DNA from: Paraburkholderia aromaticivorans
Lineage (GTDB): Bacteria > Pseudomonadota > Gammaproteobacteria > Burkholderiales > Burkholderiaceae
DNA length: 64,000 nucleotides
Assembly (NCBI RefSeq): GCF_002278075.1
Contig: NZ_CP022990.1
Span: 1,364,001-1,428,000 of the forward strand
Reading direction: 5' to 3'
The notes beneath the pieces were generated by a model. The model had not been told where the DNA came from. It made no database searches and was given only the letters and a program-made list of their open reading frames with translations. How positions within the stretch are numbered: position 1 is the stretch's first letter; every line of letters starts with the position of its first letter. Position numbers and translations under genes: made by a program. Positions 8,599 to 54,924 of this stretch are shown here, one piece after another.

Positions 8599-9511
8599 TT
8601 CAAAATCCGCGCATGCCATTTTGCACGGCGAGGCCGCCCCCATGGAGACGAACACCCCGGTCCGGCCACCCCGCAGCCCCCGACGCGGGCCACGTATCCT
8701 CGCGAAGAAACCCGCCCGGCCCGGCGACACGTTCGGCGTGCCGGGGCAAGGCAGCAGCGTCGTCACGAGCCTCATCACCGTGGCCGCGTTCATCGGACTG
8801 TGGTTCGCGGCCACCAACCTGCACTGGATCAAGCCGCTGTTTCTGCCGTCGCCGCAGGCCGTCTACGCGAAGTTCATCTTTGTCGCCACGGAAGGCTTTG
8901 CCAACTCCACGCTAGCGCAGCACACGGGGATCAGCCTGTTGCGGGTCTTCGGCGCATTCCTGCTCGCCTGCCTGACCGCGATACCCGTCGGGGTGATGAT
9001 GGGCGTGTCGCGCTTCGCACGCGGCGCATTCGATCCGCCGATCGAGTTCTACCGGCCGCTGCCGCCACTCGCCTATTTGCCGCTCATCATCATCTGGTTC
9101 GGCATCGGCGAATTTTCGAAGGTGTTGCTGATATACCTCGCCATTTTCGCGCCGCTCGCCATTGCGGCCCGTGCCGGCGTGCGTTCGGTTTCGATCGAGC
9201 AGATTCACGCCGCGTATTCGATGGGCGCCTCACGCACGCAGGTCGTGCTGTACGTGATCCTGAAATCGGCGATGCCGGAGATCTTTACCGGCATGAGAAT
9301 CGGCATCGGCGTCGGCTGGACCACGCTGGTGGCCGCCGAAATGGTCGCATCGACCAGCGGCCTCGGCTTCATGGTGCTCAACGCGGCGGAATTTCTGGCC
9401 AGCGATGTCGTGATCATGGGGATCATCGTGATCGGCTTCTTCGCGCTCTGCTTCGATTTGCTGATGCGTTATATCGAGCGGGTGCTGGTGCCCTGGAAAG
9501 GGAAGGTCTGA
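8591..9511 (+). CDS. tauC: Taurine/sulfonate ABC transporter, permease
   Basis: Inner-membrane permease of 306 residues with a Pro/Arg-rich N-terminal tail of about 55 residues and then about six transmembrane segments. The coupling loop EAA-like stretch is [25 protein letters not shown], and [19 protein letters not shown] is typical of the TauC/SsuC group. The ATG at 8591 overlaps tauB; an in-frame ATG at 8642 would still keep all helices and could be the real start. It completes tauABC and is followed 24 bp later by an intrinsic terminator, so the downstream aldehyde dehydrogenase has its own promoter. Confidence 0.92.
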
Positions 9512-9534
9512 CGCCGCGTCGCCGTGCTGCACGG

Positions 9535-9563
9535 ACAAGGGCCTTCGGGCCCTTTGTTTTTTT
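9535..9563 (+). terminator. Intrinsic terminator after tauABC
   Basis: AAGGGCC and GGCCCTT pair around a TTCG tetraloop (stem about 9537-9554), with weaker extension outward by ACA/TGT, followed at once by a run of seven T from 9557. A stable UUCG-type loop and T-tract 24 bp after the tauC stop make this a convincing Rho-independent terminator. Confidence 0.85.
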
Positions 9564-43149: not shown

Positions 43150-45012
43150 TTACTTGCGCTTCAGTTGCGAGATATCCCGCACCGCGCCGCGGTCAGCGGA
43201 GGTGGCCAGCGCCGCATAGGCCTGCAACGCCTGCGACACCACGCGCTCACGCGCCGCCGGCATCCACGCCTTGTCGCCGCGCGCCACCATGGCTGCGCGG
43301 CGGCGCGCCAATTCCTCGTCCGTGACCACCAGGTGCATCTTGCGATTAGGAATGTCGATTTCGATCACATCGCCCTCTTCCACCAGACCGATCGTGCCGC
43401 CTTCGGCCGCTTCCGGCGACGCGTGCCCGATCACCAGCCCGGACGAACCGCCGGAGAAGCGGCCGTCGGTGAAGAGCGCGCAGGTCTTGCCCAAGCCCTT
43501 CGATTTCAGATACGACGTGGGGTAAAGCATTTCCTGCATGCCGGGGCCGCCCTTGGGGCCTTCGTAACGGATCACGACCACGTCGCCAGCCACCACTTTG
43601 TCGCCCAGAATGGCTTCGACGGCGTCGTCCTGACTTTCGTACACGCGCGCACGCCCGGAGAAAATCCACTGCGATTCGTCGACACCCGCGGTCTTGACGA
43701 TACAACCCTTGTCCGCGAGGTTGCCGTACAGCACGGCGAGGCCGCCGTCTTTCGAATACGCGTTCTCCTTGCTGCGAATGCAGCCGGTCTTGCGGTCCGT
43801 ATCCAGCGAGGCGAACGTGGCCTCCTGACTGAACGCGACGGTGGTCGGAATGCCGCCCGGCGCCGCGCGGAAGAACTTCTGCGCGGCTTCGCCGGCGCCG
43901 CCGGCGATGTCCCATTGGGCGATCGCATTGCCCAGCGTGCCGCTATGCACGTTGCCGCACGACAGGTCGAGCAGATCCGCGCGAGCCAGTTCACCCAGAA
44001 TACCGAGGATGCCGCCGGCACGGTGAACGTCTTCGATATGGTATTTGTCGGTGGCGGGCGCGGCTTTGCACAGGCAAGGCACTTTGCGCGAGATGCGATC
44101 GATGTCGGACATGGTGAAATCGACGCCGGCTTCCTGCGCCGCCGCCAGCAGGTGAAGCACGGTGTTGGTCGAACCGCCCATGGCGACGTCGAGCGCCATG
44201 GCGTTCTCGAATGCCGCCTTGCTCGCGATGCTGCGCGGCAGGACCGACGCGTCTTCTTCCTGATAGTAGCGGCGGCACAGGTCCACCACCAGACGGCCGG
44301 CCTGCTCGAACAGACCCTTGCGCCATGCGTGCGTGGCGACGATCGTGCCGTTGCCGGGCAACGCCAGACCGATGGCTTCGGTCAGGCAATTCATCGAGTT
44401 CGCGGTGAACATGCCCGAGCAGGAGCCGCACGTCGGGCAGGCGCTGCGCTCGATCTCCGCGACTTCCGCGTCGCTGACCTTCGAGTCGGCCGCCTTGATC
44501 ATCGCGTCGATCAGATCGATTTTGGCGATCACCTGCCCGTCTTTCGGCGACGTGACCTTGCCCGCTTCCATCGGACCGCCGGAGACGAACACGACGGGAA
44601 TGTTCAGGCGCATGGCGGCCATCAGCATGCCTGGCGTGATCTTGTCGCAATTGGAGATGCAGACCATGGCGTCGGCGCAATGCGCGTTGACCATGTACTC
44701 GACCGAGTCGGCGATCAGTTCGCGCGAGGGCAGCGAATACAGCATGCCGCCGTGGCCCATGGCGATGCCGTCGTCCACTGCGATGGTATTGAATTCCTTG
44801 GCGACGCCGCCAGCCGCTTCGATCTGCTTCGCGACCAGCGCGCCGAGGTCGCGCAAATGCACATGCCCCGGCACGAACTGGGTGAACGAGTTCACCACCG
44901 CAATAATGGGCTTGCCGAAATCACCGTCCTTCATGCCGGTGGCACGCCACAGCGCGCGTGCGCCGGCCATGTTGCGACCATGAGTCGAAGTTCGTGAACG
45001 ATATTCAGGCAT
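43150..45012 (-). CDS. ilvD: Dihydroxy-acid dehydratase (long, E. coli-type)
   Basis: 620-residue iron-sulfur dehydratase (EC 4.2.1.9) of valine/isoleucine/pantothenate synthesis, very close to E. coli Ilv[21 protein letters not shown] at the start, [48 protein letters not shown] and the C-terminal [21 protein letters not shown] at 45012 follows TGAGGAT; the frame is open to 45072. Beta-proteobacteria usually carry a shorter IlvD (about 560 residues), so this may be an extra copy. It stands alone, between a TetR and an AKR gene. Confidence 0.95.
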
Positions 45013-46446
<1,434 letters not shown>

Positions 46447-46515: not shown

Positions 46516-47158
46516 CTAGATGAGCCCTTGAGCCGTCATGGCTAAGAGCAGCCGCTCGGCCCCGATGCCGAAACCGGCTCCCTCCCGATATGCCCCTCCG
46601 CCCACAACTTGTTGCTGCGCTCCGAGTTCGGTGCAACGCATCTCGAAGCCCTGCCCGTTCAGGTAGTAGCTGAGGCCTCTGCGGGCCGCGCCGTCGACTT
46701 CATAGTTCAGTCCGAGTGAATCGAAAAAGCCAATCGCTATAGCCTGGCTCCGCCTCGCAGCCCGTTCCGGGCTTGAGGACAGGTATTCGAATCCCAGTTG
46801 CGTAAACTCCCGATAGCGGCCGGCCTGCGGCCGCTCATATCGATAGCACCGTGCAACGTAAAACAGCATGCGTTCCTCTCGCCGACCGAGCAGTTCGTCG
46901 CACTTCTCCTGGAACAAAGCCGTGGCTTCCGGGATCAGGCAGCAGGGACGTCCCTTCTTATCCGGAAAGGCCCACATCTGATCGACGATCTCGCTGCCAC
47001 CCGCCTTCTGGATAAACGTGTCCTGCGACCACAAAGCGGGAACGATCGCCTCTTGCGCTCCCGCGTCAATGAAGATAGCTCCGGAACCTGTCCTCCAGAG
47101 CGCGTATTTGCGCAGCTTCCTTTCCAACGATAAAACGGGTTCCGCGAATCATGGTCAT
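46516..47158 (-). pseudogene. Short histidyl-tRNA-synthetase-like gene, with one frameshift
   Basis: A class II synthetase core of about 213 residues. Frame A starts at 47158 or 47152 (IRGTRFIVGKEAAQIRALED) and stops at 47066; frame B continues with IDAGAQEAIVPALWSQDTF. One extra C near 47070-47073 explains the shift. Motif 1 region EAIVPALW, motif 2 RYERPQAGRYREFTQLGFEY, the HisRS-like RRGLSYYLNGQGFE and motif 3 GGGAYREGAGFGIGAERLLLA are present. The insertion domain (about 100 residues between motif 2 and RGLxYY) and the anticodon domain are absent, so it is not a normal HisRS. A His-rich leader and terminator precede it. May be a true pseudogene, a sequencing error or recoding. Confidence 0.75.
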
Positions 47159-47181
47159 GAGATCCTCTCGAGTCTGAAAAT

Positions 47182-47205
47182 AAAAAAAGGCGCCTGAGGC
47201 GCCTT
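47182..47205 (-). terminator. Intrinsic terminator (attenuator) ahead of the HisRS-like gene
   Basis: Reading the minus strand, AAGGCGCC and GGCGCCTT pair around TCA and run into seven T. It lies 24 bp before the gene's start codon and about 48 bp after the leader-peptide stop, so it ends transcription before the structural gene unless an alternative structure forms. Confidence 0.85.
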
Positions 47206-47252
47206 GATCGTTTGTGCATGGAGCAGGAAGAACCGAACTCTCCAGTTCCTTG

Positions 47253-47333
47253 CTATGGACGTAACGAACCACGGCGCATTGAATTGCAGCCGTGATGATG
47301 GTGAGACCTGGTCGGGACGTTACGGAGTTCCAT
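47253..47333 (-). CDS. Histidine leader peptide (26 residues, four consecutive His)
   Basis: ATG at 47333 opens a 26-codon frame, MELRNVPTRS then HHHH at residues 11-14, then GCNSMRRGSLRP and TAG. It is followed by an intrinsic terminator and a histidyl-tRNA-synthetase-like gene, the order of a his attenuator. A GCGCC in codons 19-21 (ATG CGC CGT) is complementary to the GGCGC of the terminator's 5' arm and lies just past a ribosome stalled on the His codons, so an antiterminator is possible. The ribosome site is weak (GGCGAC). An imperfect hairpin or dyad (47344-47372, TTGACACACAA/TTGTGTGCAA) precedes it. Confidence 0.7.
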   Translation of the reverse strand: MELRNVPTRSHHHHGCNSMRRGSLRP

Positions 47334-53212: not shown

Positions 53213-54924
53213 ATGCGCAAACTCCGCTCGCAGAGTTGGTTCGGCAGGAACGACAAGGACAGTTTCATCCACCGCTGTGGATGAAGAATCAGGGCATTCC
53301 ACACGACGAATTCGACGGACGCCCGGTGATCGGCATCTGCAATACGTGGTCCGAACTGACGCCGTGCAACGCGCATTTTCGCGAGCTCGCCGAGTATGTG
53401 AAAAAAGGCGTGCACGAAGCGGGCGGCCTGCCGCTCGAGTTCCCGGTGATGTCGCTCGGCGAGTCGAATCTGCGCCCTACCGCGATGCTGTTCCGCAACC
53501 TCGCCTCGATGGACGTCGAGGAATCGATTCGCGGCAATCCCATGGACGGCGTGATCCTGCTGGTCGGCTGCGACAAGACCACGCCCGCGCTGCTGATGGG
53601 CGCGGCGTCGTGCAATCTGCCCGCGCTCGCGGTATCGGGCGGTCCGATGCTCAATGGCCGCTTTCGCGGCAAGAACATCGGCTCCGGCACAGGCGTCTGG
53701 CAGATGTCCGAAGAAGTACGCGCCGGTGCGATGACGCAGGAGGAATTCACCGAAGCCGAGTCGTGCATGAACCGCTCGCGCGGCCACTGCATGACGATGG
53801 GCACGGCCTCGACGATGGCCTCGATGGTCGAATCGCTCGGCATGGGCTTGCCGCACAACGCGGCGATTCCCGCGGTCGACGCGCGCCGTCAGGTGCTCGC
53901 GCATCTCGCGGGGCGCCGCATCGTCGACATGGTCCGCGAGGATCTGACGATGGACAAGATCCTCACGCGTCAGGCCTTCGAAAACGCCATCCGCACGAAC
54001 GCGGCGATCGGTGGCTCGACCAATGCGGTCGTCCATCTGATCGCGCTCGCCAAGCGTATTGGCGTGGAGTTGTCGCTGGAGGACTGGGAGCTGGGTTCGG
54101 ACGTGCCGTGTCTCGTGAATCTGCAACCGTCGGGCGAATACCTGATGGAGGACTTTTACTACGCGGGCGGTTTGCCGGCCGTGTTGAAGCAACTCGGCGA
54201 ACAGGGACTGCTGCATAAGGAAGCGCTGACGGTAAACGGCAAGACACTCTGGGACAACGTGCGCAACGCCCCGAACTATGACGAAAAGGTCATCACGACG
54301 TTCGCCGAGCCGTTCAAGCCGAAGGCCGGCATCGCGGTGCTCAAGGGCAACCTGGCGCCGAATGGCGCGGTGATCAAACCGTCGGCGGCGACCGCGAAGC
54401 TGCTGAAACACCGCGGCCGCGCCGTGGTGTTCGAGAACATCGAGGAACTGCACGCGAAGATCGACGACGAGTCGCTCGACATCGACGAGCATTGCATCAT
54501 GGTGCTCAAGGGCGCCGGGCCGAAGGGTTATCCGGGTTTCGCCGAAGTCGGCAACATGCCGCTGCCGAAAAAGGTGCTGCAAAAAGGCATTACGGACATG
54601 GTGCGCATTTCCGACGGTCGCATGAGCGGCACGGCGTACGGTGCCGTTGTGCTGCACGTGTCGCCGGAAGCGGCCGCAGGCGGCCCGCTCGCGTTCGTGC
54701 GAACCGGCGACATGATCGAACTCGATGTCGAAGCACGGCGCCTGCATCTGGACGTCAGCGACGACGAACTCGCGCGCCGGCGCGCCGCATGGCAGGCGCC
54801 GGAAGCGCCCAAACGCGGCTACTACAAGCTCTACGTCGAACACGTGCTGCAAGCGGACCAGGGCGCCGATCTCGACTTCCTGGTGGGGTCGAGCGGCGCG
54901 CCGGTGCCGCGCGATTCGCATTGA
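53213..54924 (+). pseudogene. IlvD/Edd-family sugar-acid dehydratase (L-arabinonate dehydratase-like), frameshifted near the start
   Basis: The gene should begin at the ATG at 53213 after AAAGGTGAC: MRKLRSQSWFGRNDKDSFIH, then a one-base deletion near 53276 shifts the frame (stop at 53282). The main frame resumes with WMKNQGIPHDEFDGRPVIGI and runs to 54924, about 570 residues in all. Cluster ligands and active-site motifs are intact: CNTWSELTPCNAHFRELAE, LLVGCDKTTPALLMGAASC, GHCMTMGTASTMASM and ISDGRMSGTAYGAV. It dehydrates a sugar acid such as L-arabinonate to a 2-keto-3-deoxy acid. An internal start (GTG/ATG near 53236-53281) could yield an N-truncated protein. Confidence 0.82.

Follow-up and report, generated by a model that had tools for sequence, protein, structure and literature searches.

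The frameshift site of Escherichia coli prfB reads AGGGGGUAU. This gene combines a short frame-0 ORF, an internal Shine-Dalgarno sequence 3 nt before CUU, a +1 slip of tRNA-Leu and an early in-frame stop; its CUU is followed by UGA, and its geometry is that of the CGGAGC-UAU-CUU studied here (PMC5009743 and PMC3711429, in the portions available to us). The his-operon attenuator consists of a short ORF with a His run, a pause hairpin, and a mutually exclusive antiterminator and terminator, and it controls biosynthesis genes. In bacilli, too, hisZ and the hisS paralogue are reported to be preceded by His leader peptides (PMC2965389, available part). In the CUU_AGG_C of yeast Ty1 and ABP140, CUU occupies the P site and a slow sense codon the A site, the slowness being due to a rare tRNA (PMC5009743, available part). 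His leader attenuation is already known, and a starvation-specific product of frameshifting at a hungry codon is without known example according to the same 2016 review, whose section 31 states of trans-frame proteins with starvation-specific function that 'no examples are known' (PMC5009743). No such product is named in the available parts of the later PMC11818727, PMC8915115 and PMC12719033. The portion of PMC3711429 that we had lists a single +1 cluster under 'tRNA synthetase', with the mark PV (phase variation), which may or may not include the gene described below. Most subscription papers and all bioRxiv preprints lay outside the scope of our literature search, in which we found no description of a His-codon or HisRS frameshift; this is hence no proof of absence.

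The locus that we describe, from Paraburkholderia aromaticivorans, has the sequence elements of prfB listed above and would share the slip of tRNA-Leu, and its product is likely to reduce its own frameshift. It departs from prfB in that the A-site codon is a His codon, CAY, instead of UGA, that the stop need not adjoin, that the product is HisRS-like, and that the Shine-Dalgarno sequence is weaker in the bacterial loci. It also has the His-run leader, pause hairpin and terminator of a his-operon attenuator, with a candidate antiterminator, placed here ahead of a lone HisRS-like gene and not of biosynthesis genes. The leaders of bacilli likewise consist of His codons before a HisRS paralogue; they belong to another phylum, and a frameshift is unmentioned in the available part of their report (PMC2965389). 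As in Ty1 and ABP140, CUU is the P-site codon and is followed in the A site by a sense codon, putatively a slow one, except that here the slowness would come from the charging of one tRNA and that a Shine-Dalgarno sequence is present (PMC5009743, available part). Attenuation and prfB-type frameshifting would be joined on one gene, seemingly for the same signal.

The window, that is the whole stretch of 64,000 nucleotides that was analysed (contig NZ_CP022990.1, positions 1,364,001 to 1,428,000), carries the gene and its upstream region on the minus strand. The first-pass annotation had placed the start of a class II synthetase core after the terminator and had missed the more unusual feature, the break in frame. 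No single ORF covers the gene, as the ATG at 47158 lies in a different frame from the 203-aa ORF ending at 46516, and the gene is split by a putative +1 frameshift. Behind a ribosome-binding site, GAGAGGA (47163..47169, minus strand, as all features below unless stated), which corresponds to an AG/GA-rich stretch before the ATG in relatives, the frame-0 ORF1 comprises 30 codons (MTMIRGTRFIVGKEAAQIRALEDRFRSYLH) and a TGA (47066..47158). The remaining HisRS-like catalytic core is encoded by the +1-frame ORF2 (46516..47070), and the joined product has 213 aa (P0123). The sequence around the break is TTC CGG AGC TAT CTT CAT TGA C, with a conserved +1 frameshift at 47074-47066. In it are found a Shine-Dalgarno-like CGGAG at the prfB distance (47079..47083), the shift codon CTT (Leu, 47072..47074), the putative hungry A-site codon CAT (His, 47069..47071) and the frame-0 stop TGA (47066..47068).

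Relatives were sought at three taxonomic levels. Matches were obtained in 25 of 398 genomes of the family (E 1e-10; ordinary HisS and fragments among them), 7 of 399 genomes of the order and 3 of 369 of the class, the own genome (8.9 Mb) being counted in both of the latter. Named genome contigs gave 29 loci, one of which is an ordinary HisRS, to which plasmids, phages and viral contigs were added; one further viral-contig scan yielded no relatives. The distribution of the gene across family genomes is patchy. The break itself is present in 57 non-redundant loci, 43 bacterial (including L055 and L056, each with one further break) and 14 phage. It was found in Paraburkholderia, Burkholderia, Trinickia, Achromobacter, Chromobacterium, Andreprevotia and Parachitinimonas, in further genera (L018, L072, L073 and L074), and in phage contigs. 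The sequence of L010 is identical to that of L035, and the genus mates include Paraburkholderia bryophila. As a check on the search pattern for the site, [CG]TTCA[TC], the 18 loci without a site were listed: 13 are in-frame relatives (L058, L059, L062, L064, L065, L090, L092, L094-L097, L099 and L100), and 5 are broken, fragmentary or partial (L021, L022, L023, L028 and L102). L098 was excluded, its upstream sequence being missing. Many database records of relatives are named ATP phosphoribosyltransferase regulatory subunit, and Pseudomonas proteins of the mini-HisRS type exist.

When only one genome shows a frame break, it mostly turns out to be a sequencing error, a pseudogene or two separately started ORFs, and at least five copies in our collection are truly broken (L021, L022, L023, L055 and L056). 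L022 has CTTCATTAA but seems to carry another indel, and the fragment L023 has TTTCAT. In L021 and in L068 (Paraburkholderia caribensis plasmid), the leader is kept and a deletion fuses it to a gene body without start region, a decayed copy. An error or a pseudogene would not, however, account for an identical break at the same bases in 57 loci, nor for selection in both frames. The latter was read from the 43 bacterial loci: upstream of the site, variation at frame-0 third positions was 0.39, 0.49 and 0.60 in three intervals; downstream, variation at +1-frame third positions was 0.59, 0.48, 0.50 and 0.38; and there was little variation from −12 to +8 around the site. Judged by these profiles, the wobble phase flips at the site and both frames are under coding selection. 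The two pieces could also be separately started ORFs. Against this, in 21 of the 57 loci the stretch from the last +1-frame stop to the site contains no ATG, GTG or TTG in that frame, and a separate start therefore does not explain those loci; moreover, the N-terminal piece belongs to the HisRS fold. We consider it most improbable that the break reflects error, decay or two independent starts, and retain a +1 frameshift within one gene. In L083, the shift is confined to GTT or CAC, since the last base of a +1-frame stop coincides there with the first base of the shift codon.

The shift codon is CTT in all 43 bacterial loci and in 50 of the 57 overall, and GTT in the other 7. UGA directly after CUU, the prfB criterion, was found in 0/57 loci; CAY stands there instead in 57/57 (CAT 49, CAC 8), a constancy that is partly by construction, because the site was sought with the pattern given above. 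The tRNA-Leu presumably has the anticodon GAG, in which case G-U, A-U and G-C pairs would remain after a slip from CUU to UUC. CTT makes up 9-11% of the Leu codons of the window and of 19 bacterial loci, compared to 24% for 13 phage loci. Hybridisation energies of the Shine-Dalgarno-like sequence, calculated in the 57 loci, had a median of −5.8 kcal/mol in the 43 bacterial loci and −9.7 in the 14 phage loci, compared to a control mean of −2.0, and fell in the top 10% of control positions in 22/43 and 11/14, respectively. The sequence is thus moderate in bacteria and strong in most phage loci; L013 is near the control mean, and among phages L078 and L088 are weak and L116 has none. GTT was seen solely in 7 phages (L079, L081, L082, L083, L085, L086 and L087), all with energies of −9.2 kcal/mol or below, as if a strong Shine-Dalgarno sequence offset a less slippery codon; GTT would re-pair less well than CTT. 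Folding of the stretch with a hairpin just upstream of the shift site was no better than that of shuffles (z −0.33). The exact prfB pattern, AGGGGGTAYCTTTGA, was not found in the window's genome. When 1.01 Mb of collected sequence was scanned for a Shine-Dalgarno sequence, NTT, a codon, an early stop and a long +1 ORF, 53 sites were obtained, 47 of them with a His codon; the 6 non-His sites are an alternative register in L060 and 5 others.

The slow step could be the stop codon, as in prfB, with tRNA-His slipping from CAU to AUU. The codon following CAY is indeed a stop in 52 of the 57 loci (TGA 41, TAA 11), but it is CGA in 3, GGA in 1 (L056, a broken copy) and CTC in 1; in bacterial loci the stops are TGA or TAA with a varying fourth base, and tRNA-His would pair poorly with AUU. 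We hold a slip provoked by the stop to be very unlikely. A second alternative is that the frameshift is real but constitutive: the proportion of trans-frame product would be set once and for all by the Shine-Dalgarno sequence and CUU, and a His codon would be present only because the following residue is required in the +1 frame. Slippage could be promoted by the prfB-like geometry alone, several phage Shine-Dalgarno sequences are very strong, and the yeast CUU_AGG_C of Ty1 shifts strongly by itself (PMC5009743, available part). The residues at the joint speak against a constitutive shift. In 56 shifted sequences the residue after the joint is I in 47, T in 8 and M in 1, whereas at the same place the 13 in-frame relatives and L093 mostly carry other residues (E 7, K 2, I 2, A 1, Y 1, T 1). 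The RNA therefore seems to dictate the residue. CAY stands in all 57 loci, and in the 8 with CAC, His is kept in frame 0 although the +1 frame then changes Ile to Thr. The same gene also has a His-codon attenuator, and the CTT-CAT pair is repeated at another position in the phage locus L093, where CGG AGG CGA CTT CAT occurs earlier in the gene. In the tree (quick method; weak inner branches, 30 of 65; fewest changes, 3), L093 falls outside the main cluster of shifted loci, and its signal looks like a second origin. With these observations, we hold a constitutive shift to be unlikely and favour one that depends on the His codon.

Properties of the joined protein were compared with those of ORF2 alone. 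Against TIGR00442 (HisS), the score rose from 99.6 to 112 bits and the match now begins at profile position 3; against PF13393, it rose from 39.7 to 47.4 bits, with a match from position 1; and against the HisRS chain 1adj, from 61.7 to 70.8 bits, from query residue 3. No gap opens at the joint when the protein is aligned to the HisS of the same genome, and AlphaFold2, run on 24 sequences, gave a mean pLDDT of 90.3 with one helix (residues 13-31) passing through the joint at residue 29. If the slip occurs on CUU, the predicted tryptic peptide over the joint is SYLIDAGAQEAIVPALWSQDTFIQK. As proposed in the first-pass annotation, the protein has a HisRS-like class II core: alignment with the own HisS and the invariant alignment columns show that it retains the blocks that we take to be motif 2 (YRYERPQAGRYREF) and motif 3 (GFGIGAERL), together with RGLxYY and GGGAY. 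HisS and HisZ share this core and these motifs, but the protein has 213 aa, lacks the insertion and anticodon-binding domains, and lies far below both cut-offs (112 bits for TIGR00442, cut-off 286.75; 54.7 bits for the HisZ profile TIGR00443, cut-off 271.65). The own genome has two longer PF13393 genes, a 446-aa HisS and another taken for HisZ by eye.

The product is most likely a standby HisRS charging tRNA-His. The switch could also operate as we propose on a product with a different task, another acceptor or a regulatory role, as for other lone synthetase cores. The missing insertion and anticodon-binding domains are in keeping with this, and one lone GluRS core, YadB, has the modification of a tRNA base as its task (PMC9437257, available part). 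On the other side, motif 2, RGLxYY and motif 3 are retained, the scores are closer to hisS than to hisZ, and a tRNA-His(gtg) lies within the collected stretch in 11 of the 14 shifted phage loci (exceptions L084, L088 and L116), directly after the gene in L060, L078, L082 and L093. We regard another function as a serious possibility, though not the favoured one; it is compatible with the switch mechanism.

Upstream of the gene, the leader peptide ORF (MELRNVPTRSHHHHGCNSMRRGSLRP and a stop) lies at 47253..47333, and its residues 11-14 are the four His codons to which the first-pass annotation had drawn attention. With a criterion of at least 3 His within 5 codons, a His-rich leader was found in 40 of the 43 bacterial loci; in L008 and L016 it is weaker, and in L055 it is masked by N. 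The intrinsic terminator described there was also recovered (47180..47205): an 8-bp stem with a 3-nt loop, AAGGCGCC-TCA-GGCGCCTT at 47205-47187, followed by the T tract TTTTTATTTT. A perfect stem and T tract are found in 41 of the 43 bacterial loci, the others being L045 and L047. The distances needed correction, from 48 and 24 bp to 47 nt between the leader stop and the stem and 28 nt between the stem and ATG 47158. In L020 and L047 (Paraburkholderia tropica group), the usual leader stop is lost and the peptide ends in SLRPSL-stop or SLRPSH-stop; in L047 the terminator is gone and the frameshift site retained.

The GCGCC of leader codons 19-21 is, as had been noted, complementary to the GGCGC of the terminator 5′ arm. 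It forms part of a putative antiterminator whose 5′ arm (GCGCC..GGU.CGUU) lies at 47263..47277 and whose 3′ arm (AACGAUC..GGCGC) lies at 47199..47212, overlapping the terminator 5′ arm. A pause hairpin is formed by the last His codon and the downstream GCGCCGUGGU (47268..47296). In 26 aligned loci, 95.3% of cells were paired for the pause hairpin, compared to 27-54% when slid by 1-3 columns, and two-sided changes occurred in 3 pairs, a number that shuffles match 1/500 times. For the antiterminator, 91.9% of cells were paired compared to 30-57% when slid by 1-3 columns, with little covariation: two-sided changes occurred in 1 pair, matched by shuffles 172/500 times, and the covariation score was equalled by shuffles 94/500 times. 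Across the alignment of the leader region, two-sided changes are few and the RNAalifold covariation term is 0.04. The comparison of orthologues that had been suggested as a check thus bore out the conserved His run and stem, but the covariation expected of the stems was sparse and weak. The second check, RNA folding, agreed with the proposal, as the leader region folds better than 200 of 200 shuffles (z −4.36). No Rfam family was matched in the window at gathering threshold, and thus none by the attenuator. Conservation gives good support to a His-codon attenuator ahead of this non-canonical HisRS-like gene. The first-pass reading of a histidyl-tRNA-responsive switch is borne out in part, with leader and terminator conserved; the arrangement is less novel than first thought, because bacilli offer a precedent in the leaders of their hisS paralogue and hisZ (PMC2965389, available part).

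Relatives differ in which His element they carry. A terminator and a His-rich leader were recognised by eye in two of the in-frame relatives, L058 and L064 (the latter a Pseudomonas silesiensis plasmid); in a third, L059, neither was seen by eye. Most shifted phage forms have no terminator upstream, i.e. no attenuator; the phage loci L060, L083 and L093 have an upstream stem with T tract, and L060 also a short ORF with two His. Around this gene family, His control thus appears as attenuator alone, as attenuator plus frameshift, or as frameshift alone. Of the comparative evidence, these three combinations argue most strongly that the histidine supply is read by the frameshift as well.

The conserved split gene, the shift site, the attenuator elements and the HisRS-like product are established by sequence comparison. 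From these, we infer the slippage, its response to His-tRNA and the activity of the enzyme. Since the gene appears to need a +1 frameshift at a His codon besides its attenuator, two putative His-dependent elements follow each other. At the level of transcription, a ribosome stalled on the leader His run would free GCGCC...CGUU, which would pair with the terminator 5′ arm and let RNA polymerase read on. At the level of translation, ribosomes starting at ATG 47158 would reach CUU with CAU in the A site and the Shine-Dalgarno-like sequence just behind. With plentiful His-tRNA, CAU would be decoded, the stop would come next, and a 30-residue peptide would be released. With scarce His-tRNA, the pause would let peptidyl-tRNA-Leu slip from CUU to UUC, and the +1 frame would yield the 213-aa protein. 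Being apparently readable only via a +1 slip at a His codon, the enzyme would be made chiefly when His-tRNA is short, and by charging tRNA-His it would close a negative feedback loop comparable to that of release factor 2. We are rather confident that the locus is a two-tier, histidyl-tRNA-controlled gene for a minimal HisRS-like enzyme. Weighing against this are the moderate Shine-Dalgarno sequences of bacteria, the poorer re-pairing expected of GTT, the weak covariation of the antiterminator, the loci with a weaker leader or no perfect terminator, the missing attenuator of most phage forms, and the patchy occurrence and broken copies of the gene. We also think it probable that it is the first hungry-codon switch to be found in nature: a programmed +1 frameshift that responds to the charging state of a single tRNA, self-limiting, with a functional enzyme made only when that aminoacyl-tRNA is short, which apparently arose twice in one gene family, occurs in bacteria as well as in giant phages, and is combined in the former with an attenuator for the same signal. 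The gene is in any case a concrete candidate for a starvation-specific trans-frame protein, with a clear off/on prediction. If the proposal is true, annotated proteins of the family have a wrong or missing N-terminus. In giant phages, the gene might serve as a standby that keeps up the charging of tRNA-His while infection proceeds.

In viral contigs of up to 578 kb (L060, L078-L087, L093, L116 and others), HisRS-like genes lie inside tRNA arrays, with up to 43 tRNA genes in a 10-kb stretch of L087, and a tRNA-His is often their direct neighbour. ARAGORN predicted no tRNA in the window. No conserved neighbour was found in the 24 regions compared, as the groups shared by at least 4 regions were only the gene itself and two groups of overlapping ORFs. 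PADLOC returned no match for the joined protein or for the upstream acetyltransferase. On the giant-phage contig L078, two tandem tRNA-Pyl(cta) predictions at 9388-9544 (minus strand) might point to TAG recoding. In the window, the large flanking ORFs at 43150-45072 (minus strand) and 53236-54924 (plus strand) resemble by eye the dihydroxy-acid dehydratase family.
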